Assembly (NCBI RefSeq): GCF_036250065.1
Contig: NZ_CP109199.1
Span: 7,252,001 to 7,316,000 of the forward strand
DNA from: Micromonospora sp. NBC_01699
Lineage (GTDB): Bacteria; Actinomycetota; Actinomycetes; Mycobacteriales; Micromonosporaceae
Reading direction: 5' to 3'
DNA: 64,000 nucleotides
How positions within the stretch are numbered: position 1 is the first letter of the stretch; every line of letters begins with the position of its first letter. Below are positions 2,473 through 16,602 of this stretch, piece by piece. The notes beneath the pieces are model-generated. The model searched no databases. It had not been told where the DNA came from and saw only the letters and a list, made by a program, of their open reading frames with translations. The position numbers were made by a program, and so were the translations under genes.

Positions 2473-4328
2473 ACGGAAACGGCGCGCTCGACGGCCTCGG
2501 GGCCGAGCGGACAGTGCTCCGGCTGGGCCGTCCGTACCTGGGCCGGCTGGTCGGCGCCGGACTGCTCGCCGCCGGCACCGAACTCGCCGGACTGGCCCTG
2601 ATGGCCACCGCCACCTGGCTGCTGATCACCGCCGCCGGGCAGCCGCCGCTGGACGTACTCACCGTGGCCATCGTCGCGGTCCGGGCGCTGGCCATCGGCC
2701 GGGGCGTGCTGCGCTACACCGAACGCCTCGCCGGGCACGACGCCACCCTGCGCTTCGTCACCGACGTACGGGCCCGGGTCTTCGCCACCCTGGCCGGACG
2801 CCGCACCGGCGCCGCAGAACACACCGGCGACTCGCTCAGCCGGCTCGTCTCCGACGTGGAGGCGGTCCAGGACCTGCTGCTGCGGGTGCTGGTGCCGGGC
2901 GCGGCGGCAGCGGTGGTGAGCCTGCTGGCCGTCGCCGGCACCGCCGCCCTCGCCCCCGCGGCAGCGGCACCGCTCGCCCTCGGGCTGCTGCTGGCCGGAA
3001 TCGTCCTGCCGGCCGCCGCCACCGCGCTGACCCGGCGCACCGCCGACCGGGTCGCCCCGCTGCGCGGCGCGCTCGCGGTCGACGCGGTCGACCTGACCCA
3101 CGGCGCCGCCGACCTGGCCGCCTTCGGCGCCACCCGGGCCGCGCTCGACCGGGCCGACGGCCGGGCCCGGGAACTGGCCGGGCTGGAACGGCGGCTGGCC
3201 GCTGCCGGCTGGGCGATCGACGGGCTCGGGGTGCTGGTGTCCGGTGCGACCACCGCCGCCGTCGTCGCCACCGCGCTGTACGCCGGGCTGGACGGGGTGC
3301 TGGTCGGCGTACTGGCGGTGGGCACCCTGGCCGCGGTGGAGGTGAGCCTGGCCCTGGTCGGTGCCGCCCGCCAGTGGACCCAGCTCCGCGCCGCCCTGCG
3401 CCGGGTGGCACCCCTGCTCACCGCCACGTCGAGCGAAGAAGCAACCGTCGAATCGACCGCTGCATCGACCGGCCAAACGACCGACGAAACGACCGACGAA
3501 ACGACCGGCGGGGCGACCGCCGGATCGACGGGCGGGCTCGGGGCGAGCGGGTCGGTGGTCGAGCGGCACGACTGTGTGGTCGACGAGGTGACCGTCCGGT
3601 ACCGGGACGGGGCGCCGGCCGCGCTCGACCGGGTGAGCCTGGATCTGCCGGCCGGCCGGCGGGTGGCCGTGGTGGGGCCGAGCGGGGCCGGCAAGAGCAC
3701 GCTGATCGGCGTACTGACCGGCGCGGTGGTGCCGGACGGCGGCCGGGTCACCGTGGGTGGTCGGGAGCTGTCCGCGTACCCGGTCGAGCAGTTGCCCCGG
3801 CTGGTCGGCGGGCTGCTCGCCGAGGCGTACGTGTTCCACGCGTCGGTCCGGGAGAACCTGCTGCTCGGCCGGGCCGACGCGAACGACGACGAGTTGGCCG
3901 CCGCGACCGGGACCGCCGGCCTGCTCGACTGGGTACGACAGCAGCCCGCCGGTTGGGAGACCATGGTCGGCGAGGACGGCGGCCAGCTCTCCGGCGGCCA
4001 GCGGCAGCGGCTGGCCCTGGCCAGGGCACTGCTCGCCCGGCCACCGGTGCTGGTGCTGGACGAGCCGACCGAGGGGCTCGACCCGACCGCCGCCGACCGG
4101 GTGCTCGCCTCGATCACCGACACGATCCCGACCGGGCACGCCGTACTGCTGGTCACCCACCGGTTGCGCGGCCTGGACCGGTACGACGAGATCCTGGTCC
4201 TGGACGCCGGCCGGGTACGGCAACGTGGCCGGCACGCCGACCTGCTCGACCAGCCCGGCTGGTACCGGGAACAGTGGCTGGCCCAGGAGGCGGCGGAGGG
4301 CGACTACCTGGCCCTCACCGCCCACTGA
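2469..4328 (+). CDS. cydC: Thiol reductant ABC exporter subunit CydC with Thr-rich linker
   Basis: The 619-residue partner of CydD. The exporter membrane domain comes first, then the ATPase domain with Walker A (GPSGAGKST, near residue 403), signature LSGGQRQR (near 507) and Walker B (VLVLDEP, near 526). The ATG at 2469 overlaps the cydD stop. Between the two domains, at about residues 322-360, lies a Thr/Glu/Ala/Gly-rich low-complexity stretch partly built from 12-nt DNA repeats around 3474-3510. It makes the protein longer than the usual 550-590 residues. A short inverted repeat (CCCCGA/TCGGGG, 4419-4437) lies downstream and could end the operon. Confidence 0.92.
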   Translation: MNGNGALDGLGAERTVLRLGRPYLGRLVGAGLLAAGTELAGLALMATATWLLITAAGQPPLDVLTVAIVAVRALAIGRGVLRYTERLAGHDATLRFVTDVRARVFATLAGRRTGAAEHTGDSLSRLVSDVEAVQDLLLRVLVPGAAAAVVSLLAVAGTAALAPAAAAPLALGLLLAGIVLPAAATALTRRTADRVAPLRGALAVDAVDLTHGAADLAAFGATRAALDRADGRARELAGLERRLAAAGWAIDGLGVLVSGATTAAVVATALYAGLDGVLVGVLAVGTLAAVEVSLALVGAARQWTQLRAALRRVAPLLTATSSEEATVESTAASTGQTTDETTDETTGGATAGSTGGLGASGSVVERHDCVVDEVTVRYRDGAPAALDRVSLDLPAGRRVAVVGPSGAGKSTLIGVLTGAVVPDGGRVTVGGRELSAYPVEQLPRLVGGLLAEAYVFHASVRENLLLGRADANDDELAAATGTAGLLDWVRQQPAGWETMVGEDGGQLSGGQRQRLALARALLARPPVLVLDEPTEGLDPTAADRVLASITDTIPTGHAVLLVTHRLRGLDRYDEILVLDAGRVRQRGRHADLLDQPGWYREQWLAQEAAEGDYLALTAH

Positions 4329-4494
4329 GGACCCACCGCCCGGCGGTCCGATCCCCGGCGAACTCCGGTCCACCGACCGGCGAGCCCCGGTCCGGCGCCA
4401 GGCGAGCCGCCCGGCGAACCCCGAGTCGGTCTCGGGGACGGAACCGGGGGAACGCCGGACCTGAGGCGGCGGGCCGACATGGCAGGCTGAACGG

Positions 4495-5175
4495 ATGTCG
4501 ACCCGCGAGGCCCCGATCGACCACTATCTTCGACTGCTCGGCGGCCGGCTGCGCGGACCGGCCCGGCTCAGACGCGACCTGCTGACCGAGGTGCGCGACA
4601 GCCTCCGGGACGCGACGGAGGCGTACCGGGAATGTGGTCTGGATCCGATCGCGGCGCAGCGGCGGGCGGTGGCCGAGTTCGGCGCGCCCGACCGGCTCGC
4701 GCCGGCCTACCAGGCCGAGCTGACCGCCGGGCAGGGGCGGCGGCTGGCGCTGCTGGTGGCGCTCGTCCCGGTCGCGATGCTGACCGCCGACCTGATGTGG
4801 TGGCAGCCGCCGGCCACGACCCCGTCGGCGCCGTCGGGCTTCCTGCTCCTGGTCCAGGCCCTGGACTGGGCCTCGTACGCCGCCGGCGCCCTGGCCCTGC
4901 TCGCGCTCCTCCTGCTCGGCCCGGCCGGCCGCCGGTGGCCGATCGCCCCGCGTGGGGTGGTCCGCCCGCTGGCCGTGGTCGCCCTGGTCGTCGGCGGCCT
5001 GATCTGGGCGCTCGGCGTCTTCGCCGGGGTGAACGCGGTCCGGGAGTCACCGGCGGCGCTGACCTGGCCACCGATGATCACCGCCTGGATCATGCTGAAC
5101 GCCACCTTCGGCCTGCTCACCTGGCTGACCGTCCGGGCGATCGCGGCAACCGGACACCGGCCGATCCCGGCATGA
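4495..5175 (+). CDS. HAAS/permease-prefix domain membrane protein, copy 1
   Basis: A 226-residue protein. Its first 75 residues match the HAAS (DUF1700, permease prefix) fold: a helical region ending in AVAEFGAPDRLAPAYQAEL. About four hydrophobic helices follow. HAAS proteins commonly sit beside PadR regulators and are thought to transmit a signal through the membrane part; their biochemical role is unknown. A CAGGCT hexamer ends 6 nt before the ATG and there is no ribosome site, so translation may be leaderless. The stop overlaps the next gene as ATGA. The next gene is a paralogue, so the pair is a tandem duplication. Confidence 0.8.
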   Translation: MSTREAPIDHYLRLLGGRLRGPARLRRDLLTEVRDSLRDATEAYRECGLDPIAAQRRAVAEFGAPDRLAPAYQAELTAGQGRRLALLVALVPVAMLTADLMWWQPPATTPSAPSGFLLLVQALDWASYAAGALALLALLLLGPAGRRWPIAPRGVVRPLAVVALVVGGLIWALGVFAGVNAVRESPAALTWPPMITAWIMLNATFGLLTWLTVRAIAATGHRPIPA

Positions 5176-5834
5176 TCGACGAGTACGTGCACGAGCTGGG
5201 CCGGGCGCTGCACGGGCCGGCCCGGCTCAAATCGGACCTGCTGACCGAGGCCCGGCACAGCCTGACCGACAGCGCCGAGGGCTACCGCGACGGTGGCCTG
5301 CACCCGGCCGAGGCCGAGCGGCGGGCCATCACCGAGTTCGGCCCGGTAGGCCGGCTCGCCCACGAGTACCAGTCGGAGCTGCTCGCCGGCGCGCTGCGCG
5401 CCCTGGCCCTCCGGGTTGTCCTCGTGGGTGTGGTGCTGATGGCCACCGCCGACCTGATGTGGCACGAGGCGCCCTGGACCGGCCCCCGGCCACCCGCCGG
5501 TTACCTGCTGCTCTCCGGCTCGCTGGACTGGCTCTGGCGGGGCATCCTCCTGCTCGCGCTCGGCTCCTACCTGTGCCTGGCCCGGTACGCCCGGAGTGGC
5601 CGGACCGGTCCGGTACGGCTGGCGCGGGCGGCCGGGATCGGCCTGTCGGTCTCGCTCGGTCTCGGCTGGATCGTCACGGTGGCGGTGTACGCCTGGTCCG
5701 TGACCCTCTGGGACTCGGCGCTGGCCTGGCCGCCGATGCTGGTCGGCGGGATCGCGCTGGTCGCCGTGCACGCTTGGCTGGGTCGGGCGGCGTACGCCTG
5801 CCTGGCGACGGGTCGGCCGACCGGAGGCCGGTGA
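5172..5834 (+). CDS. HAAS/permease-prefix domain membrane protein, copy 2
   Basis: A 220-residue paralogue of the preceding gene. The N-terminal HAAS region (residues 1-70, with AITEFGPVGRLAHEYQSELL) aligns with copy 1, including the run ADLMWxxxP at the first membrane helix, and about four hydrophobic helices follow. It overlaps copy 1 by 4 nt, so the two are co-translated and may form a heteromeric membrane complex. The convergent PadR gene 40 nt downstream is the likely regulator partner by family habit; that link is inferred from context. Confidence 0.8.
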   Translation: MIDEYVHELGRALHGPARLKSDLLTEARHSLTDSAEGYRDGGLHPAEAERRAITEFGPVGRLAHEYQSELLAGALRALALRVVLVGVVLMATADLMWHEAPWTGPRPPAGYLLLSGSLDWLWRGILLLALGSYLCLARYARSGRTGPVRLARAAGIGLSVSLGLGWIVTVAVYAWSVTLWDSALAWPPMLVGGIALVAVHAWLGRAAYACLATGRPTGGR

Positions 5835-5874
5835 GGGGTGGCGGCCCTGCGCAACGGCGGCGTGGCCGGGTGGG

Positions 5875-6216
5875 TCAGGCGGGCGCCTGCGACGGGCCGT
5901 CCACGCCGAGGAAGCGGCCCACCGTCGAACTGAGCTCCTGCCAGCTCGTCCGCTCACCGGCCAGGGCCCGGTGCCCCGCCCCGGTGAGCCGGTACGTCCG
6001 CCGCTCCCGGCCGTTCACCGTGCTCCAAGTGCTGTCGACGTAGCCGGCCCGCTCAAGCCGGCGCAGGGCCGGGTAGATCGTCCCGGTGGGCAGGTTCAGC
6101 ATGCCGCCGCTGCGTTCGCGGAGCGCCTCGATGATGGCGTAGCCGTGCAGCGAGCCCTCCTCAAGCACCGAGAGCAGCAGCGCGTCGAGATGGCCGTGCA
6201 ACGCCTGGGCCTTCAT
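5875..6216 (-). CDS. PadR family transcriptional regulator
   Basis: A 113-residue winged-helix regulator with the PadR hallmarks: LLLSVLEEGSLHGYAI near residues 12-27, LPTGTIYPALRRLERAGYV for the recognition helix and wing, and RRTYRLTGAGHRAL. I chose the ATG at 6216 (MKAQALHGHLDALLL) because PadR proteins begin just before this helix. An in-frame start at 6288 adds 24 residues that look unrelated. On the minus strand a TAGTCT hexamer lies 8 nt upstream of the ATG, overlapped by the inverted repeat GTAG-N5-CTAC (6219-6231), which suggests leaderless translation and autorepression. It converges on the two HAAS genes. Confidence 0.9.
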   Translation of the reverse strand: MKAQALHGHLDALLLSVLEEGSLHGYAIIEALRERSGGMLNLPTGTIYPALRRLERAGYVDSTWSTVNGRERRTYRLTGAGHRALAGERTSWQELSSTVGRFLGVDGPSQAPA

Positions 6217-6231: not shown

Positions 6232-6371
6232 TAATAGATGGTGGCTTCGCCAACGGGGTGCCGGCACCCGCCCCGTCGAGCCGCCCACTAGGGTATGTGC
6301 GCAGAGTCACCCACCCGACAGTTCCACCCCGGATCGGGTGCCGCAAACCTTGAGTGCACACGGAGGTCAGC

Positions 6372-7367
6372 GTGGCCCGCCAGTCGCCCCACCGGCCCGA
6401 CGCCGACGAACCCGACACCGAGTTCGACGAGAGCAGCCGGACCACCGACACCGCGACCGACAGCACAGCGGACGCGGCAGCCGACCCCGTCGAGGCCGAC
6501 CAGGACCTCGACGACGACGAGGTAACCGAGCCCGCGAACCGCGCACTGTGGGAAGACGTGCGGATCGACCCGGTGGAGATCGCGCTGCCCGCCGGCAGCG
6601 GCTTCACCCTGCGGGCGTACCGGATGTCCAACACGGTGACGCCGACCGAGATCGGCGAACGCGAGGACGACCCGTTCGACGCCCGCGCCCGCCGGTTGGA
6701 GGACGAGGAGACGGTGGTCTTCCTCGACGAGGAGTTCGCCGAGGACTTCGAGGACGACGACGGCAAGCCCCGGCGGGTCCGCCGTACCCGTGACGGCGAC
6801 GAGGTCGACGACGAGGAACTGCTCGCCGACGACGACGCCGACGATGAGGAAGCGGACGAAGCCGACGACGATGAGGAAGCCGAAGAAGTTGCGGTCTTTC
6901 TCACTCACCGGGGCAAACTGCTGCTCTTCAAGAGCCGCGAGTCACTGGTCAGCTTCGTCCTGTCCGGCGCACCGCACGACATGTCCGGGCTCGACACCTG
7001 GGACGACCTGGTAGCCCGGCTCCAACCAGCGGATATCACCCCACTGGACGATGACTCGTACGAGCTCGACCTGGTCGTGGAGAACCTCCGCGGCGGCCAC
7101 GACACGTGGGACCCGGCCCTGCTCATCTCGGCCGGAGAGATCGCCCGCGACCTGTCGTACGCGCTGCGGCTTCCCTCCGTACTGGATATGCTCTCGACCG
7201 GCTCCAGCCTCGATGACCTGGACGAGGCGCTGCGCGCGACGGCCAACGGTGGCCTCGGCGGTTTCATGGGGCGGCGCCGACTCAAGAAAATCGGGGCACA
7301 AACCGCAAGTTTGGGTTGGCGCACGATTATCGGCAAGATCTCTGCATCGGTGGACTGGCGCGACTGA
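6372..7367 (+). CDS. Conserved acidic protein of unknown function
   Basis: A 331-residue protein. Its first 170 residues are dominated by Asp and Glu (for example the DDDADDEEADEADDDEEAEE run) and are probably disordered. The C-terminal half looks folded (HRGKLLLFKSRESLVSFVLSG, then LDMLSTGSSLDDLDEAL) and ends in a basic patch GRRRLKKIG. I chose the GTG at 6372 because GGAGG lies just upstream. I recall similar proteins being called primosomal protein in databases, but nothing here supports a replication role. The RNase H-like gene starts 62 nt downstream, so the two are probably co-transcribed. Confidence 0.75.
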   Translation: MARQSPHRPDADEPDTEFDESSRTTDTATDSTADAAADPVEADQDLDDDEVTEPANRALWEDVRIDPVEIALPAGSGFTLRAYRMSNTVTPTEIGEREDDPFDARARRLEDEETVVFLDEEFAEDFEDDDGKPRRVRRTRDGDEVDDEELLADDDADDEEADEADDDEEAEEVAVFLTHRGKLLLFKSRESLVSFVLSGAPHDMSGLDTWDDLVARLQPADITPLDDDSYELDLVVENLRGGHDTWDPALLISAGEIARDLSYALRLPSVLDMLSTGSSLDDLDEALRATANGGLGGFMGRRRLKKIGAQTASLGWRTIIGKISASVDWRD

Positions 7368-7429: not shown

Positions 7430-10162
7430 GTGGCGCTCGTGCGGGTGTACTGCGGTCTGGCCTCAGCGGATCCGTCCGCTGGACCGGCTTCGGCCGGATC
7501 CACGCTGACGTCTGCTGTGGTTGACGACGCAGGCCGACTGCTCCACGTCGGCGAGATCGGCGACGACCCGGCTGGCTACGCCCAGCTCGGCGCGCTGCTC
7601 GTCGAACGTTCGAGCGGCATGAGCGGTGTGGCGATCGCCGCCGACAGCGACGACCACCTGGTCACCTCGCTGCTGAGCGCGGCCGGCCGACCCCTCGCGA
7701 TCGCCGACGACGACTCGGTCGACGACTTCGCCGAGCGGTTCGCCGACGACGAGTCGGTGGAGGAGATGGAGAGCTCGCCGGCCCAGCGGCGGGCGGTCGG
7801 ACTCGCCCGCGCGTTGCAGGCCGGCGCGCTCTCCGCGATGACCCTTCCGGCGCCCCGGGACCTGGCCGGCTACAAGCCCGTACTGGCGGCGCACGCCGCG
7901 CTGGCCAGTGGGCGTCACTCCGCCGCCGCGACCCTGCGCGAGGTGCTCCGCGAGCTGTACCCGGCCGCCCTGCGGGCGTACCCGGATCCGGCCGATCCGG
8001 TGCCGCTCGCGGTGCTCGACGCGCTGCCCGAGCCGGGCATGCTCGCCGGCACCGGCGAGCGGGGCCGGGACACCTCGGTCGCCGCCGACGCCATCGCCGC
8101 CCACCTCGCCGCGGACGGCATCGCCGACCCCGAGGAGATCTCCGAGGCGATCACCGCGCTCCAGGTGGCGATCGTCGAGACACCCCGCCGGGCCACGGTC
8201 AGCAACAAGGCGCTCACCTCGGCCGTCGCCGAGGCGGTGCGGCAGGCCGTCGCCGCGGTACGCGCCTGTGACGCGGGCTGTGACGCGCTGGTGGCGACGC
8301 TGGCGGCACGGGTCACCACACCCGCGCCGCTGTCCGGCCGCCGTACGGTGCGCCGCGCCACCGTGGGCGCCACCACGGGCGCCGGTGCCCACGGGACCGG
8401 CAGCCACGGCGTCGTCGGCAGCCACGGCGTCGGCAGCCAGGGGCCGGGCAACCACGGCGTACGGCCGGCGAACCACGAGCCGGTACCGGCGGTCGGCCGA
8501 CGCAGCCGGCCTCAACCAGCCCCCGGCGGCGGGATGCCGGTCACCCCGCAGCCGATGTCACCGCCTCCGGTCGCGCCCGCGCCGTTGACCCCGCCGCCGA
8601 GCGCCCCGCAGCCCCTCGCACCCGCGGCCGCCCTGCCCGGCCGGCAGCTCGCGCCGCCGGTGGCACAGCCGCAACGCGACCTGCCCCCACCGCCGCCCGC
8701 GAACCCGGCGGGACCGGCGCAGTGGCGGGAGTCGCCGGCCAACCGGCCGGTGTCCGCCCCGCCCCCGCCGCCGCCGGGCATCACGCCGATCGTGCCGGTG
8801 CAGCGCAGCAGCAGCGTGCCGCCGGTCGACGCGGGTGAGCCGTTCCGCGCCACCCTCACCACCGCAGCGATCAACAGCGCCCGCAGCGAGCGTCAGCGCC
8901 CGACGCCGATCGTGCCGCGGCCGAAGACCAAGGGCGAACCGGGTCTCGCCGCCACCGGTTTCGGCGCCACCGACCTCAATGTTCCGGTGCCGACTCCCCG
9001 GCCGGACGCGGTCACCGCGCCGCCGGGATCGCGGGCGAACTGGCCCCTGGTCGGCCCCGCCGAGGACCGTAACCAGCTGGAACTGGAGCAGCTCGACCGC
9101 GACCGGGCCGACCGCGAACGCGCCGAACGCGACCGGGCCGACCGGGAGCGGAACGAGCGCGCCGAGCGCGACCGGGCCGACCGGGAGCGGAATGAGCGCG
9201 CCGAACGCGACCGGAGCGACCGGGAGCGGGGCGAACGCGCCGAGCGCGACCGTCTGGACCGCGACCGGGCCGACCGGGAGCGGAACGAACGCGCCGAACA
9301 TGGCAGAGCCGAACGGGACCGGGCCGACCGGGACCGGGCCGAGCGCGACCGTCTGGACCGTGAGCGGGCCGGGCGGGACCTGGCTGCCGCCGCCGAGCCG
9401 GCGTACCAGTTCGACAAGCGTTCCCCGGCCGGTCTCGACCTGCCGGCGGCGGCCGGACCGGGCGACGGACGGGTGACCCCGCCGTGGCTCGCGGACGACC
9501 TGCCGCAGGAACCGCCGATGCTCCGGCTGGTCGAGCCACCGCCGCTGGCCGACCGTGCCCTGACCGACCGCGCCCTGCGCGACCACCAGCCCGGCCCAAC
9601 CGCCGACCAGCGTCTGGACGGCCCGCCGCTGCGCCTGGTGGAGCCCGAGGACCCGGACCGCGGTGGCCGGCTCATCACCCGGTCGGCCCGCCGCGCCGCC
9701 GAGCCGAGCGCTCCGCCGGTGGCGGCCGAGGGCGACGGCGACCTGCTGATCTTCGCGGCCGCTCGCTCGGCCTGGTTCACCGGACATCCGGAGGACGACG
9801 CACAGGTGGAGTGGGTCTCGACCGCCGACACCGGCTGGCGGGCGGCCGAGCAGGCGGCCAGGCCGCAGGTGGGCGACGAGACGCGGGCGGGTCTGCCGAA
9901 GCGGGTGCCGCAGGCGAACCTGGTTCCGGGCTCGCCGCTGCGGGACGAGCGGCCGCTGCGCATCGTGCGCGACGCGGCCCGGATCGCCGAGCACACCACC
10001 GGCTACTTCCGCGGCTGGCGCAGGGGTCAGGAAATCGGCGGCTTCGCGGTCGGCGGTCGCCCCGGACGCGAGGCCGCGGGTGGCTGGGACTTCACCCGCG
10101 ACGGCAACGAGCGGGACGACGATCGGGAGTACGAGTTCCGCTCCGCCGGTTACCGCTCCTGA
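7430..10162 (+). CDS. RNase H-like N-terminal protein with charged repeat and kinase-type C-terminal motif
   Basis: A 910-residue protein of uncertain function. The N-terminus (YCGLAS, LTSAVVDDAGRLLHVGEI, VAIAADSDDHLV) resembles the RNase H-like start of IS110-type transposases, and relatives are sometimes labelled transposase. There are no terminal repeats, no C-terminal transposase domain and a very long insert, so I do not regard it as mobile. A Pro-rich region (about 380-530) and an Arg/Asp/Glu repeat (about 555-652) follow. Residues 821-835 read GLPKRVPQANLVPGS, and the tail has GYFRGWRRGQ, a pattern shared with the nearby CvnA kinase. The GTG at 7430 is preceded by GGGAGGAGG. Confidence 0.7.
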   Translation: MALVRVYCGLASADPSAGPASAGSTLTSAVVDDAGRLLHVGEIGDDPAGYAQLGALLVERSSGMSGVAIAADSDDHLVTSLLSAAGRPLAIADDDSVDDFAERFADDESVEEMESSPAQRRAVGLARALQAGALSAMTLPAPRDLAGYKPVLAAHAALASGRHSAAATLREVLRELYPAALRAYPDPADPVPLAVLDALPEPGMLAGTGERGRDTSVAADAIAAHLAADGIADPEEISEAITALQVAIVETPRRATVSNKALTSAVAEAVRQAVAAVRACDAGCDALVATLAARVTTPAPLSGRRTVRRATVGATTGAGAHGTGSHGVVGSHGVGSQGPGNHGVRPANHEPVPAVGRRSRPQPAPGGGMPVTPQPMSPPPVAPAPLTPPPSAPQPLAPAAALPGRQLAPPVAQPQRDLPPPPPANPAGPAQWRESPANRPVSAPPPPPPGITPIVPVQRSSSVPPVDAGEPFRATLTTAAINSARSERQRPTPIVPRPKTKGEPGLAATGFGATDLNVPVPTPRPDAVTAPPGSRANWPLVGPAEDRNQLELEQLDRDRADRERAERDRADRERNERAERDRADRERNERAERDRSDRERGERAERDRLDRDRADRERNERAEHGRAERDRADRDRAERDRLDRERAGRDLAAAAEPAYQFDKRSPAGLDLPAAAGPGDGRVTPPWLADDLPQEPPMLRLVEPPPLADRALTDRALRDHQPGPTADQRLDGPPLRLVEPEDPDRGGRLITRSARRAAEPSAPPVAAEGDGDLLIFAAARSAWFTGHPEDDAQVEWVSTADTGWRAAEQAARPQVGDETRAGLPKRVPQANLVPGSPLRDERPLRIVRDAARIAEHTTGYFRGWRRGQEIGGFAVGGRPGREAAGGWDFTRDGNERDDDREYEFRSAGYRS
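9094..9385 (+). repeat. In-frame repeat encoding Arg/Asp/Glu-rich segment
   Basis: Degenerate tandem DNA repeats inside the 910-residue protein encode variants of DRADRERNERAER over almost 100 residues. The alternating acidic and basic residues would favour a long single helix or coiled coil. The repeats keep frame throughout, so they are protein repeats and not a CRISPR array. Confidence 0.8.
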
Positions 10163-10318: not shown

Positions 10319-11536
10319 ATGGCGACACCGGCGATCGGTTCATCCGCCCTTACCCGTCGCGGCCTGCTCCTGGCCGGCACCTCCACGCTGTTCCTGGCCG
10401 CCTGCGGGCGCGGCGACGAGGACGATCGCAGCGGCCCCACCGGCAAGGGTCCACAGGACCTCGCCATCGGTGCCAGCCTGGAACTGACCGGCGCCGGCGC
10501 GGCACTGGGCGTCCTCCAGGAACGGGCACTGCGGATCACCCTCGAAACGTTGAACGAGGAAGGCGTACCGGTCGGCAACCTGCGCCGGAAGATCCGCCTG
10601 GTGGTGCAGGACAACGGCAGCAACCCGAAGACCGCGGCGGAGCAGGCGACCGAAATGGTCAACCGCGACCAGGTGCACGCGCTGGTCGGCGGCACCCTGG
10701 CCGAGACCTCGATGTCGATGATCGCTGTCGCGCAGGAGGCGCAGGTCCCGTTCATCTCCCTCGCCGCCGCCGACGAGATAGTGCTGCCGCTCCCCCAACG
10801 GACCTTCGTCTACAAGCTCACCCCCGACGCCAGCGACGTCGCCCGCCAACTGGCCCGCCTGATCAACTCACAGCGGCTGGAGAAGGTCACCCTGCTGGCC
10901 GCACCGGGCCTGCACGGAAACTCCGGCGTACGGGCCATGACGGGGGCGCTCGACACCGTCGGGGTGGGCCTGAACAAGACCGTACGGCTGCCGGCCACCG
11001 GTGCCGACTTCGCGTCCGCCGCGACCCGGGTGGCGAGCGGCAAGCCGGACGGGGTGACGATCTGGGCCACCGCCCCGAGTTCCGGCGCCGCCGCCCGCGC
11101 GCTGCGCGACGCCGGCTACCAGGGCCCGATCTTCTTCGACGCCGGCGCGGTCGCCGAGGAGACCCTCTCGACCGAGAACGCCGAGGCGGTCGAGGGGTCC
11201 TTCGTGGTCCACCCGATGGCGCTGAGCGGCTCCTCGCTGACCAACACCACCAGCGCCGGCCTGGCCCGGCGGGACTTCGTCTTCCGCTACATCCAGGAGC
11301 ACGGCTCGTTCAGCGGGTTCGCGCCGTACGCGTCGGACGCGGTGCACCTGATCACCGCCGCCGCCCGGCTCGCGAACAGCGTCGACCGGGGACGTCTGCG
11401 GGTGTACCTGGCCCGTCAGGTGACCGAGGGAATCGCCGGCTCGTACGCGTTCGCGCCGATCCGTCACGGCGGCATGGAGCCCGACTCGCTCGGCGTGTTC
11501 ACCGTCAGCCGTGGCGAGTGGACCCGGATCTCCTGA
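10319..11536 (+). CDS. Branched-chain amino-acid-type ABC substrate-binding lipoprotein
   Basis: A 405-residue periplasmic-binding-protein-6 (Leu/Ile/Val receptor-like) protein. The N-terminus has a twin-arginine-like RRGLLLAG followed by a lipobox FLAAC, with the lipid-anchored Cys near residue 22. The body has the family pattern (IGASLELTGAGAALG, VVQDNGSNPKTAAEQATEMV, VHALVGGTLAETS). No permease or ATPase lies beside it, so it may act as a ligand sensor more than as a transporter subunit. It sits between the RNase H-like gene and the convergent conservon, and ends at a strong bidirectional terminator. The ATG at 10319 follows a GAGAGGCGG-like ribosome site. Confidence 0.85.
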   Translation: MATPAIGSSALTRRGLLLAGTSTLFLAACGRGDEDDRSGPTGKGPQDLAIGASLELTGAGAALGVLQERALRITLETLNEEGVPVGNLRRKIRLVVQDNGSNPKTAAEQATEMVNRDQVHALVGGTLAETSMSMIAVAQEAQVPFISLAAADEIVLPLPQRTFVYKLTPDASDVARQLARLINSQRLEKVTLLAAPGLHGNSGVRAMTGALDTVGVGLNKTVRLPATGADFASAATRVASGKPDGVTIWATAPSSGAAARALRDAGYQGPIFFDAGAVAEETLSTENAEAVEGSFVVHPMALSGSSLTNTTSAGLARRDFVFRYIQEHGSFSGFAPYASDAVHLITAAARLANSVDRGRLRVYLARQVTEGIAGSYAFAPIRHGGMEPDSLGVFTVSRGEWTRIS

Positions 11537-11649: not shown

Positions 11650-12258
11650 TCAGGCGGGCGCGACAGCGCGTGACCTGCGCATGGTGAGCACGTACTCCAC
11701 CAGCGAGATCAGCACGTGCTTGGTCGACTCGCGGTTACGCGCGTCGCAAGCCACCACCGGGACGTCACTCGAAATGGCGAGCGCGTCCCGCACGTCCTGC
11801 GGGTCGTGGTACTGCATACCGTCGAAGCAGTTGATGGCCACCAGGTACGGCAGCCGCCGGTGCTCGAAGAAGTCGATCGCCGCGAAGCAGTCGGCCAATC
11901 GACGGGTGTCCACCAACACCACGGCCCCGATCGCTCCCCGTACCAGTTCGTCCCACATGAACCAGAAACGTGTCTGGCCCGGGGTGCCGAACAGGTAGAG
12001 GATCAGATCCCGGTCGATCGAGATCCGACCGAAGTCCATGGCGACCGTGGTGGTCGTCTTTCCCGGCACCTGTCGCGTGTCATCGACGCCGACGCCGGCG
12101 GACGTCATGATCGCCTCAGTGGTCAACGGCGTGATCTCCGAGACCGAGCCGACCAGCGTCGTCTTGCCGACGCCAAACCCACCGGCGATGACGATCTTCG
12201 CCGATGTCACGCGCCCGGGCATCGGGCGGTGCGACATGTCAGAGCCTGCGAAGTCCAC
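11650..12258 (-). CDS. cvnD: Conservon small GTPase-like ATP/GTP-binding protein (CvnD)
   Basis: A 202-residue Ras/MglA-like P-loop protein: GGFGVGKTT (G1), the segment MDFGRISI followed by LYLFGTPGQ (G3 region) and a late VVACDARNRES. It is the last gene of a conservon, the actinomycete module in which a sensor kinase-like protein, a roadblock protein, a DUF742 protein and a GTPase form a membrane-associated complex resembling a eukaryotic G-protein system. I prefer the GTG at 12258 (overlapping cvnC by 20 nt, with GGAGAGGG upstream). The ATG at 12237 would give a product 7 residues shorter. Confidence 0.92.
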   Translation of the reverse strand: MDFAGSDMSHRPMPGRVTSAKIVIAGGFGVGKTTLVGSVSEITPLTTEAIMTSAGVGVDDTRQVPGKTTTTVAMDFGRISIDRDLILYLFGTPGQTRFWFMWDELVRGAIGAVVLVDTRRLADCFAAIDFFEHRRLPYLVAINCFDGMQYHDPQDVRDALAISSDVPVVACDARNRESTKHVLISLVEYVLTMRRSRAVAPA

Positions 12259-12619
12259 TCAGCACCCTCTCCAGCAGTTCAGTGCCCACCGCGTCGTTAG
12301 AGTCGTCCAGGATTGTCGGTTCATGCACCGCGACCAGGCCTTCGGCGGCCATGTCAGCGATGAGGACCCGGGCCACTCCGAGCGGTAGCTGCATCCGCGC
12401 CGCGATTTCCGCGAGCGACTGCAACTGACCGTCACACAGCGCGGCGATGTATTGGTGCTCCCGACCCTGGCCGCCGTTGCCGTTACCGGCTGTCCGGCCG
12501 CGCACCGTCGTCTCGACCAGTGCCTCCAGGGCGATGTTGAGCCTCGGCCGGGTCCGTCCACGGGTGACGGCATATGGCCTGACCAACGCGCCAGTTGGCT
12601 CGTCGCGTTCAGCCATCAT
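12239..12619 (-). CDS. cvnC: Conservon DUF742 protein (CvnC)
   Basis: A 126-residue DUF742 protein with the family start (LVRPYAVTRGRTRP) and a winged-helix-like region (SLAEIAARMQLPLGVARVLIADMAAEGLV). It is the third conservon component and is thought to take part in the kinase-roadblock-GTPase assembly. ATG codons at 12619 and 12616 are both possible starts. A 108-nt space separates it from cvnB, while it overlaps cvnD. Confidence 0.93.
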   Translation of the reverse strand: MMAERDEPTGALVRPYAVTRGRTRPRLNIALEALVETTVRGRTAGNGNGGQGREHQYIAALCDGQLQSLAEIAARMQLPLGVARVLIADMAAEGLVAVHEPTILDDSNDAVGTELLERVLSGLRRL

Positions 12620-12727
12620 CGCCGTTCACCCCCTTCTCGCCCCGTCCGTGACCCGAGCCCCTGGAACTCGTCGTCCTTCTTTCGTTGCCGTCGCACCCGT
12701 TGACCGGGTGGCCGACCGGCGGCACTC

Positions 12728-13132
12728 CTAGCCCAGCATCCCCGCCGCGGCGCGCGGCGCGGGCGTGAGCGCGTCTCCCACCCGGTCGACGAGCAGTGCC
12801 ATTTCGTAACCGACCTGTCCCACGTCGCTGTTGCGAGCGGCGAGCACCGCGAACGACGAACCGTCCGAGATGGACATGAGGAACAGGAAGCCATTGTCCA
12901 TCTCGACCACGGTTTGCAAAACCGCGCCACCCTCGAAACAGCGTGCCGCGCCCTGGGTGAGGCTGACCAGTCCGGACGCGATGGCGGCGAGCTGGTCGGC
13001 CCGGTCACGCGGAAGGTCCCGTGACGACGCGAGGAGCAGACCGTCCGCGGAGACCGCGATCGCGTGTGCGACGCCCGGCACCCGGTCGGCGAAGTTGGCA
13101 AGCAGCCAACCGAGATCCTGCGTAGATGTCAT
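12728..13132 (-). CDS. cvnB: Roadblock/LC7 domain protein (CvnB)
   Basis: A 134-residue single-domain roadblock/LC7 protein: [31 protein letters not shown], then [15 protein letters not shown] and [21 protein letters not shown]. Such proteins act as regulators or activators of partner GTPases, here probably CvnD. It overlaps the cvnA stop by 4 nt (ATGA), so it is translated together with the kinase. Confidence 0.94.
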
Positions 13133-16100
13133 GCTTCATGCTCCTTCTGACCGCTCCCGGCCGCGGGGCCTAAGCCGGCCTGCGGGGATTGCTGACCTCC
13201 CGGAGTCCCTTCCGGGTTGGTCGACGGGTCTTCCGAGGGGTTGGTACGGCCGCGCTGTACTCCACGGTGGTACGCGGACAGCAGGCCGCGTACCGCCTCC
13301 GGGGTCCGGCGTTGCACCGAGACGCTCGGCTTCTCCACCCCGCCGGGTACCAACTGTGCCATCGGCACCCGCTTGGGCAGACCCTTCTGCGTGGTCTCGG
13401 CGACCGGCACGTCGGTGGCCGCGGATGCGGCACGCCACCCGTCGTCGGCGGCCGTCTGCCAGCCGCCCACGGACGAGCCTGCCGGCCGGCTGGCGCCGTT
13501 GCCGTAGCCAACCGGTGCCGTCGTCGTCTCCGCCGGCCCCATCCCCCGGCCCAACCCGGCGGAAACCGCCGGAGCCGCCATAGCGGGGCTGGTAGGGGTG
13601 TTGACGGAACCGTTCTGGGTCGTGCTCCGGGCGGCGTCGGCGGTGACGTACTGGCCGTTGCCCGCAGTGGCGTCGTCGGCGGTCTCGTCGTTGACCTCGC
13701 GCCGGGTACGGAACCAGGCGGACTCCAGCTCACGGAAGATCGGCAGTTCCATGGTCTCGTCGGCGAACCTCGGCCGGGCCTCGACCGCCGCCGCCGAGGG
13801 CACCGTGATCGGCGGCTCGACCGACGAACGGGCGATCCGGGGCAGTTCGGCCGTCATGTCCAGCGCCGCCGCGAGCCGTTCCGGAACAGAGGGTGCGGGC
13901 ACTTCCCGGTCGGCCGCGCTGACCGGCGGCCAAGCCGGCGGGGCACCCGCCGCCGTCGCGGGGGGCGTCGACACCGGCGGAGCGGACGGGGTGGACGCCG
14001 GCGGCAGGACCGGCGGCGTCAGCCCGGCGTTCGCCGGTCGGGCTTCCGGGGTGGTCGGGAGCTGCCGGGGGATGTTCGGTGCGGGCGTGCCCGTCGGTTC
14101 CGCGTCGTTGCTCGACTCGGTCGCCCGGCGTTGCGGCAGCGGGTCGACGCCGTGCCCGTTGGACGGACGCGGGCTGAACCCGTCGCTGCTGCCGTTGCTG
14201 CCGGCCTTCGCACCGGTGAGGTCGGACCAGGCCGGCATGCCGCGCCCGGCGCCGTTGCCACGGCTGGCTCCGTTACCGAACCCGCCGCCGTTGCTGCCCA
14301 GACCGGAACCGTTGCCGAGACCGCCGTTGCCGAGGCCGCCACCGCCGTTGCCGAGACCGCCACCGCCGTTGCCGAGGCCGCCGCTGTTGAACGCGGCCGG
14401 CTCGAACGGGCGACCGGTCGACCCGAGGTCGCGCTCCGGGGTCCGCTGGACCGGCGGGACCTGGCCGCTCTCCAGGGCCAGCGGGGGGCCGAAGCTGGGC
14501 CGCTGGTTCGGCGGCTGCTGCGCCGGGGTGGTGTAACCACCGGACTGCTGGGCCCGGCCGGAGAGCGCTCGCGGCACGAGCACCGAGGTCGGCATGGTGA
14601 CATCGGCCACCGTGCCCCGGTCGGAGCCGGGTCGCAGCTCGACCTTGACCCCGTGCCGGGCGGCCAGTCGGGCGACCACCACCAGGCCCATCATCCGGGA
14701 GACCGCGACGTCCACCTGGGGTGGCGTGGCGAGTCGCTCGTTGAGGTCGTAGAGCTGGTCGGCGGTGATGCCGATGCCCCGGTCCTCGACGTAGAGCGAC
14801 GCACGGTCACCGACCCGCCGGGCCTCGACCATGACCTGCGAGTCGGGCGGCGAGAAGGCGGTGGCGTTGTCGAAGAGCTCGGCGACCAGGTGGACCAGGT
14901 CGTTGACGGCGTGCGCGGCCACCTCGATGTCGCGGTCGACCACCCCGAACTCGATCCGGGTGTAGTGCTCGACCTCGGACTGGGCGGCCCGCAGCACGTC
15001 GATCAGAGCGGCCGGCTCACGCTGCACCCGGGTGGAGTCCGCGCCGGCGAGCACCAGCAGGTTCTCGTCGTTACGACGCATCCGGGTGGCCAGGTGGTCG
15101 AGCTGGAACAGCTCGGCCAACCGGTCCGGGTCCTCCTCGCCGCGCTCCAACCGGTCCAGGTGACCGATCAGCCGGTCGACCAGAATCTGCGAACGACGGG
15201 CCAGGTTGACGAACATCGTCGCGACGGACGAACGGAGCGCGGCCTGCTCGGCCGCGGTCCGGACCGCTTCGAGGTGGACCGCGTTGAATGCCTCGGTGAC
15301 CTGCCCGAACTCGTCCTTGCCGCGTACCGGCAGGGGTTCGGCGATCTGGTTGGCGAGCTGCACCGGCGACATCTGGGCCGACAGCGCCGGGTCACGCAGT
15401 CGGGCGACCGCCTGGGGCAGGCCGTACTGGGCGATCGAGAGCGCGCCGTGGCGCAGCTCGCGCAGCGACCGGGCCATCGAGCGGGCCACGATCCAGGCGA
15501 ACAGGATGGCCAACAGCAGCGTGGCGAGCAGCAGCGTGGTCTCGACGAAGACCTGCCGGCGTACGTCGTCGCGGATTGCGGTCGCCCGGTTGACCGCGTC
15601 ACTGTCGAGCCGGGCCTCGACCGTACGGATCAGCTTCGCGTTGCCGATCATCGCCGCGTCCCACTTGTCCGCGTCGAACGGGGCGTCCGCCATGCTGTCG
15701 TTGGTCTTGCCCCGGATGTAGCCGCTGTAGTTGTCGGCCTCGCGCTGGTCGGAACCGGCCACCGTCTGCTCGTAGAACTCCGCCTCGGACCGGGTGGCGA
15801 CCGACTGGAAGGACTGGAGTGCCTGCTGCTGACCGGTCTCGGTGGCGATGTAGTCGGTGCGCAGCACCGGGGTCAGCTCGTTCTGGATCAGGGCGCGGTG
15901 TACCACGACCCGGCGTACGGAGAGGAACTCCTTGGCGCGCGACGTCGCGGTGGCGGCCCGCATCCGCTCGCTCAGCGCACTGTCGCCGGCGAGCTGGGAG
16001 GCCGAGTCGCGGATGTCGAGCAGGTCGCTGATCAGGCCCTCGTACGACTGCGAGGCGTCGGTGAGCTTCAGCTTGGCGTTGACCACCTGGCTCCGGGTGG

Positions 16101-16548
16101 CCGGCAGGTCGGCCAGGCTCCGGTCGATCCGGGTGAGCAGACCGGTGAAGTTGGCCGGCAGGTCGTTCAGCTCGGCGCGCTGCTCGGAGTACGGGCCCTT
16201 GGCCTGGTCGATCCGGGGGTGCACCTTGCCGTACGCGTCCTGGTACTTCTCCTTCGCCTCCTGGTTCGGCGAGCCGAGCAGCAGTACGGCGGCGGCCCGC
16301 TCGTCCTGGAGGCCGTCGACGAGTTCGCCGGATGCCTGGGCCAGGTTGGCGAGGGTGCGGGCGCGTTCCGCGTTGTTGTAGGTCTGAAGGTGGTCGATGA
16401 GCCCGGTGGTGCCGACCACGATGGTGGCGAGGGTCGGCACGATCATGATGATGCCGAGCTTGGACCAGATCGGCATGTCACGGAGCCGGCCCATTGGCCG
16501 GCGGAGACGCGACAGGAAAGAGTTCGCCGTGTTCGGCCGCTTGCTCAC
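13129..16548 (-). CDS. cvnA: Nitrate/sulfonate-sensing histidine kinase of a conservon (CvnA)
   Basis: An 1139-residue sensor. A first membrane helix (about 30-52), an extracellular NIT-type sensing region, a second helix (about 334-356) and a HAMP-like segment come first. Next are the phospho-acceptor region with [13 protein letters not shown] (His near 484), an N box with [13 protein letters not shown] (about 555-567), and DRGIGI (about 589). The rest is low-complexity: Gly/Asn repeats (about 718-759), Pro-rich stretches, then [15 protein letters not shown] (1056-1070) and YHRGVQRGR. The GTG at 16548 has a strong AGGGAGGGCGG site upstream; an ATG-type start at 16599 lacks one. Confidence 0.93.
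14272..14395 (-). repeat. In-frame Gly/Asn/Leu repeat in cvnA
   Basis: Tandem DNA repeats encode GGLGNGGG-like units over about 40 residues in the disordered part of CvnA. They keep reading frame and probably form a flexible linker between the ATPase domain and the conserved C-terminal motif. Confidence 0.75.
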
Positions 16549-16602
16549 GTCACCGCCCTCCCTTTTCGGCTCCCGCGCGTCGCAGCGGGCACCGCCCATC
16601 GA

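Follow-up and report, generated by a model that had tools for sequence, protein, structure and literature searches.

The 64,000-nucleotide window analysed here, a stretch of the Micromonospora sp. NBC_01699 genome, encodes a 910-residue protein that we call RH (window 7430-10162), adjacent to a conservon of the type CvnA-CvnB-CvnC-CvnD. RH carries the same C-terminal tail as CvnA, the kinase of that conservon, and its N-terminal half is related to IS110 transposases and has lost two of their four catalytic residues. On the sequence evidence, RH appears to be a dead transposase turned accessory of the conservon, with CvnB as the likely docking site. The reading that we prefer, with a probability of about 0.62, is that the tail serves as a roadblock-docking strap, through which RH would couple to the roadblock/GTPase module of the conservon alongside the kinase or in competition with it.

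The initial annotation described a bipartite motif common to the two proteins, in which RH residues 821-835 (GLPKRVPQANLVPGS) are identical to CvnA residues 1056-1070 at 12 of 15 positions and YxRGxxRG(R/Q) follows near both ends. Both matches were recovered where they had been placed. The CvnA counterpart of GLPKRVPQANLVPGS lies at 13383-13339 on the minus strand and corresponds to residues 1073-1087 of a 1156-residue open reading frame (ORF); the lower numbering uses a start placed 17 codons later. The second motif reads GYFRGWRRGQ in RH (10001-10030) and has a 10-residue counterpart in CvnA (13275-13246). Smith-Waterman local alignment of the two tails gives a score of 129 across about 75 residues. 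None of 1000 shuffled RH tails reached this score against the CvnA tail (best 60), and a chance match was therefore rejected. For the full-length proteins the score is 135, and 100 shuffles averaged 82 and did not exceed 113; the shuffle scores are high because both proteins are compositionally biased. Comparison of a profile of 60 RH tails with one of 50 CvnA tails gave E 1.9e-12 across 76 columns, the rows of these profiles being closely related (Neff 1.4 and 2.3). With the window CvnA as query, tblastn also matched the RH tail at four loci (L031, L035, L070 and L074) whose own cvnA lies off the contig. When the RH tail was used as a single query sequence against the window's own genome, CvnA was not recovered; a mixed RH/CvnA tail profile did recover it.

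Both blocks of the bipartite motif are genuine, and the shared tail is larger than first described, with two more blocks upstream. Block 1 precedes the stretch of about 75 residues; both proteins have L-x-IF...SAWF there, and LLIFAAARSAWF (RH 772-783) pairs with CvnA 952-963. Block 2, WVSTADTGWRAAEQA (RH 795-809), pairs with CvnA 1047-1061. Blocks 2-4 contain fifteen invariant positions in an alignment of 14 RH and five CvnA rows, including D10, W13, G31, L32, P33, R35, P37, L41, P43, G44, G72 and R75. Among 33 aligned RHs (the window protein and those of 32 loci), mean pairwise identity is 0.91, 0.76, 0.98 and 0.93 in blocks 1 to 4, 0.83 in residues 1-300 and 0.39-0.53 in three linker stretches. 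The AlphaFold2 model of full-length RH is of low confidence (mean pLDDT 52.6) and leaves the linker and tail mostly unstructured, with helices at residues 774-783, 802-810 and 849-869, corresponding to blocks 1, 2 and 4. An unstructured tail with helices at its blocks would be expected of a strap that folds upon its partner.

The RH N-terminal domain was matched in 60 of the 61 genomes of the window's family, with one match only in 56 of the 60; of the second matches inspected, L153 is an IS110 transposase and L162 an unrelated frame. RH was examined in 39 of the 60 matching genomes, comprising the window and 38 others (the second set). All 39 RH genes have the tail, which in L169 lies beyond an apparent break in a frame of its own, and the tail is also present in six RHs whose N-terminal domain shows only 26-31% identity. 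An RH profile matched 25 of 246 genomes of the class, three of them from the window's family. Outside the family it found 33 places, of which 23 are frames of 330-460 residues and two are longer (756 and 576 residues). The 330-460-residue frames are read as IS110 transposases, an identity for which the Pfam check comes from a single sequence, L153, of the window's family. In the completed part of a regular-expression search, the short loci L173-L199 gave no tail match.

Gene order connects RH to the conservon. The 80 named loci come from Micromonospora, Plantactinospora, Salinispora, Asanoa, Verrucosispora and Micromonosporaceae bacterium entries, and a convergent conservon, scored by a cvnD more than 80% identical, follows RH at all 57 that extend at least 5.8 kb past the RH start. 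In the second set a conservon is present at 33 of 39 loci, window included, and is not in the fetched stretch at the other six. These counts support the link between RH and the conservon that had been suggested; the expectation that RH occurs only near conservons is too strict in view of the last six.

A second linkage is to roadblock genes. Directly downstream of 14 of the 39 RH genes, the window's not among them, lies an own roadblock gene on the same strand, at 12-139 nt; in L143 and L144 the script-chosen roadblock start overlaps the RH stop. The three of these 14 roadblocks that were tested against PF03259 (Robl_LC7) all pass (47.3, 59.7 and 59.4 bits; cut-off 23). Eight loci have both an own roadblock and a conservon, six an own roadblock only, 25 a conservon only, and none has neither. 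The RH-linked roadblocks form one group (support 100/100), and a profile search found this subfamily in 14 of 25 family genomes, only beside RH (194-231 bits), with no match above 115 bits in the other 11. In the window's own genome the best match to the profile is the window cvnB, at 109 bits. Rooting the RH tree with L153 makes early branches of 13 of the 14 roadblock-linked RHs. Because 14 of 39 RHs precede their own roadblock, six of them without a conservon in the fetched stretch, a CvnB-type roadblock is likely the tail's partner, and the better-supported one.

The same tail is found on kinases across the class. A first search matched 24 of 79 class genomes at 50 places, five of which (RH and four kinases) belong to the window's own genome. 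Among the remaining 45 places, 44 (L239 included) are in ORFs with a kinase core; the last, L232, is a fragment at a contig edge with roadblock, cvnC and cvnD genes after it. A second search at E 1e-7 matched 115 of 296 class genomes at more than 150 places. Fifteen new places were fetched, including all nine under 700 residues among the matches listed, and the other matches listed were judged by frame length only. Fourteen of the 15 are kinase-roadblock loci: kinase and tail share one ORF in L279-L284, the tail occupies its own frame, which overlaps the kinase ORF, in L270, L271, L273 and L274, and L272, L275, L276 and L278 are fragments at contig edges with cvnB, cvnC and cvnD after them. 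The fifteenth place, L277, is also a fragment; it lies where a contig starts and has no cvnB in 6 kb. A roadblock match starts less than 250 nt downstream on the same strand in 74 of 77 tail-bearing kinases, and at 250 nt in one more; no kinase-roadblock fusion was seen among the ORFs scanned. The blocks vary among kinases, since patterns for blocks 1, 3 and 4 were found in only 39, 66 and 58 of the 77. Twelve plasmid records match the 73-residue CvnA tail (best E 3e-6, weakest near 9), with annotations of one NIT protein and two ATP-binding proteins. Occurrence of the motif in many unrelated proteins, which the initial annotation had named as counting against a docking role, was not seen: the places classified outside RH are CvnA-type kinases or contig-edge fragments.

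The N-terminal half of RH points to a different origin. The window RH matches no Pfam family, and specifically not NIT, HAMP or HATPase. The RH of L143 matches DEDD_Tnp_IS110 (PF01548) over positions 7-155 of 155 (E 1.5e-6; 28.5 bits, cut-off 29); the same family is matched weakly by L147 (E 0.14) and not by L145, L148 or the window RH. L153, a true IS110 transposase from the same family as the window, matches the window's N-terminal domain with E 7e-13 and 36% identity. An alignment of ten RHs with four transposases shows that none of the ten RHs has the first catalytic D or the E of DEDD, and that the last two D (third and fourth) are retained in some early-branch RHs; the columns scored as D, E, D and D are those that we take to be the IS110 catalytic residues. 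Transposase_20 (PF02371), found in L153, has no match in the five RHs scanned. In a model of RH residues 1-300 (mean pLDDT 54.7), strands and helices follow one another as they do in RNase H folds, and a fold search with this model returned Spt6 and Tex and, more weakly, the IS110 recombinases IS621 and ISCro4. Two matches, both Spt6, have E 0.001 or better, and IS621 and ISCro4 have E 1e-3 to 2e-2; we take these matches as supporting evidence only, because the structure models are of low confidence. The domain thus appears to be IS110-derived and domesticated, with two DEDD residues, the first D and the E, missing. RH had been suggested to be possibly an accessory rather than a transposase, which agrees with the loss of two of four catalytic residues and disagrees with the IS110 derivation of its N-terminal half.

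Taken together, we propose that RH is a dead IS110 transposase half joined via a long, mostly disordered linker to a CvnA-type C-terminal strap. The strap would consist of three helix-forming blocks around an extended GLPxRxPxAxLVPG segment and most likely folds onto a CvnB-type roadblock dimer. In the early RH branches it would bind the own roadblock encoded just downstream. In the window's branch, where the own roadblock gene is missing, RH probably uses CvnB of the neighbouring conservon, on which it would compete or co-assemble with CvnA and thereby influence the GTPase CvnD. The analysis itself establishes the similarity and conservation of the tail, the IS110 relationship, the loss of two catalytic residues, the gene order and the linkage to roadblock genes; roadblock binding, the change of partner and the effect on CvnD are what we infer from these. 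An interaction of CvnA9 with CvnB9 is reported (PMC8510531), and MfpD, a CvnB homologue, is described as the GTPase-activating protein, and MfpC, a CvnC homologue, as the likely guanine nucleotide exchange factor, of their GTPase (PMC13343842). RH may have originated from an IS110 copy that landed inside a cvnA gene; if the linker, the tail and the cvnB downstream were kept, every element of the arrangement would be accounted for. A more speculative extension, which we consider improbable, is a Ras-like GTPase module with a second, non-kinase input, in which the dead half of an IS110 bridge-RNA recombinase would still recognise nucleic acid or another ligand and compete with the kinase for CvnB via the shared strap.

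Several observations weigh against docking on a roadblock protein. Two tail-bearing kinases, L248 (3951-6463, minus strand) and L261 (3363-6914, minus strand), have cvnC directly downstream and no roadblock within 900 nt, which weakens a strict CvnB rule; CvnC, or a CvnB encoded elsewhere, is therefore a possible tail partner. CvnA9 is reported to interact with CvnC9 too (PMC8510531), and one conservon kinase ORF of the window's own genome (L099) retains little of the tail. The roadblock-linked L138 falls inside the RH group without roadblock, so that the tree calls for either two losses or one loss plus a regain, and a single loss is not supported; its root is unsure, given a very long outgroup branch. 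Shared ancestry can account for gene order that is common within one family, and both RH structure models are of low confidence.

One alternative is that the tail docks CvnC (DUF742) or CvnD instead of a roadblock protein. This would accord with the presence of cvnC and cvnD after most tail-bearing kinases, with the two kinases that have cvnC and no cvnB, and with the reported CvnA9-CvnC9 interaction. We regard it as unlikely, as 14 RHs precede a roadblock without same-strand cvnC or cvnD, six of them with neither gene anywhere in the fetched stretch, and two tail-bearing kinases, L238 (4442-7470, minus strand) and L279 (4040-6952, minus strand), have a roadblock and no cvnC or cvnD in the fetched stretch. 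A roadblock without same-strand cvnC/D is thus seen in 16 cases, against two cases of cvnC without cvnB. Slightly less probable again is a homotypic, membrane or nucleic-acid contact, in which RH and CvnA tails would meet each other or a surface and the roadblock neighbour would be incidental. Block 4 is Arg-rich and helix-forming in the low-confidence model, and the tail occurs on two otherwise unrelated proteins, as such a contact would allow, but the own roadblock and/or adjacent conservon at all 39 RH loci would be left unexplained. Finally, the IS110-like N-terminal half might suggest an active, mobile transposase that gained a piece of cvnA by chance and whose tail is functionless. We rejected this very improbable account on the absence of the first catalytic D and E from all ten RHs aligned; the missing Transposase_20 match in the five RHs scanned, the usual single match per genome, the conserved genomic place and the strongly conserved tail blocks also speak against it.

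If the tail is a roadblock-docking strap, the candidate site makes the kinase-to-partner step of conservons directly testable. RH would also be a domesticated IS110 protein that belongs to the core genes of an entire bacterial family. Since the kinase and a single unrelated protein have the tail in common, and both are roadblock-linked, a definite, mutable docking site is indicated. The features concerned are collected in Table 1.

Table 1. Positions of RH, its tail and the adjacent conservon in the window.
Feature	Position	Strand	Remarks
RH gene	7430..10162	+	910 residues, GTG start; IS110-derived N-terminal domain, Pro-rich mostly disordered linker, CvnA-type tail
RH residues 1-300	7430..8329	+	predicted inactive IS110-type RNase H-like domain, then helices; low-confidence model
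Variable linker	8330..9733	+	mostly predicted disordered; contains charged helix, residues 544-654
Tail block 1, LLIFAAARSAWF	9743..9778	+	helix in model, low pLDDT
Tail block 2, WVSTADTGWRAAEQA	9812..9856	+	sequence alignment
Tail block 3, GLPKRVPQANLVPGS	9890..9934	+	first of the two motifs initially annotated
Tail block 4, RDAARIAEHTTGYFRGWRRGQ	9968..10030	+	helix in model, low pLDDT; contains the second motif initially annotated
Conserved C-terminal extension, residues 872-910	10043..10159	+	alignment
cvnD	11650..12258	-	small GTPase; Pfam ATP_bind_1, weak Ras match
cvnC	12239..12619	-	DUF742
cvnB	12728..13132	-	Roadblock/LC7; proposed docking partner; own genome's best match to RH-linked roadblock family
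cvnA	13129..16599	-	NIT, HAMP, HATPase sensor kinase
CvnA tail blocks 2-4	13246..13461	-	sequence comparison
CvnA tail block 1	13711..13746	-	sequence comparison

Some further features of RH and its surroundings were noted. The linker helix (9059-9391, plus strand) is predicted to be long and charged, with ERDRADRER-like repeats and high pLDDT; the rest of the linker is not conserved. Judged by eye, the C-terminal extension is present in RHs without an own roadblock and absent or diverged in those with one. Upstream of RH, an acidic protein of about 331 residues without a Pfam match is encoded at 6354-7367 (plus strand); because a match to it precedes RH at all 80 named loci and at most loci of the second set, the two proteins may pair. 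The substrate-binding protein gene at 10319-11536 (plus strand), which separates RH from the conservon, is present in only some of the genomes. Across the second set, the best tblastn segments for the conservon (11650-13132, minus strand) are 87-100% identical to the window's CvnB and 80-100% to its CvnD, with 40-91% for CvnA. In the window's own genome there are six DUF742 places; the CvnAs of three pass the tail profile at E 0.001, and those of L096 and L098 show a weaker tail by eye. The L098 paralogue (C1:7565000-7574000; 2918-6127, plus strand) ends in what appear to be two weak tandem block 3/block 4 pairs and looks like a doubled docking strap.

The four-block tail as a feature of CvnA is a result of this analysis; we found no published definition, and a term search of the main text of PMC13343842 found no mention of a kinase C-terminal tail. 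In the open-access literature, neither the shared tail nor a domesticated IS110 core gene was found in print. No open-access paper was found that treats a conservon or CvnA together with a transposase or IS110, by a narrow query that could miss some, and none on a domesticated IS110 with catalytic-residue loss, the tail motif strings or DUF742 with a transposase. According to PMC13343842, the way in which conservon kinases act on partner proteins is largely unexplored and the phosphorylation target of CvnA8 is unknown.

Compared with the canonical conservon, RH has a CvnA-type tail and adjoins a conservon or directly precedes a roadblock gene in all loci examined. In contrast to CvnA, in which Pfam finds NIT (E 3.5e-39), HATPase_c and HAMP, the window RH has none of these domains and is encoded convergently, outside the conservon operon. 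Its N-terminal half resembles the IS110 DEDD transposases, including IS621 and ISCro4, in the PF01548 match of L143, the identity to L153 and the fold matches, and differs from them in lacking the first D and E and Transposase_20 and in usually giving one match per genome. Like CvnE (a cytochrome P450) and CvnF (a GAF protein), RH is an extra conservon-linked protein, and CvnF8 is reported to act on CvnA8 (PMC13343842). CvnE and CvnF are, however, described as being encoded in the conservon operon with kinases that lack a sensor domain (PMC13343842). RH is linked to a NIT-bearing kinase, is convergent to cvnD on the opposite strand instead of following it in the operon, is IS110-derived and carries a kinase-type tail, with no P450 or GAF domain (0 Pfam matches).

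Two further comparisons concern roadblock proteins, of which we take MglC of the first to be one. RomR of Myxococcus xanthus is described with a folded N-terminal domain and, after a long Pro-rich linker that is disordered, a C-terminal helix; this helix contains a key Trp and binds MglC with a KD of 2.6 nM (PMC12719032). RomR differs in having a receiver domain and in that one helix suffices (PMC12719032); the likeness to RH is one of layout only, an analogy of principle. A strap of the kind proposed for RH is likewise reported for LAMTOR1/p18 of Ragulator, which wraps roadblock dimers and in this way serves the Rag GTPases (PMC5680233, PMC5696360). LAMTOR1/p18 is eukaryotic and membrane-anchored (PMC5680233, PMC5696360), and here too the resemblance to RH is an analogy of principle.

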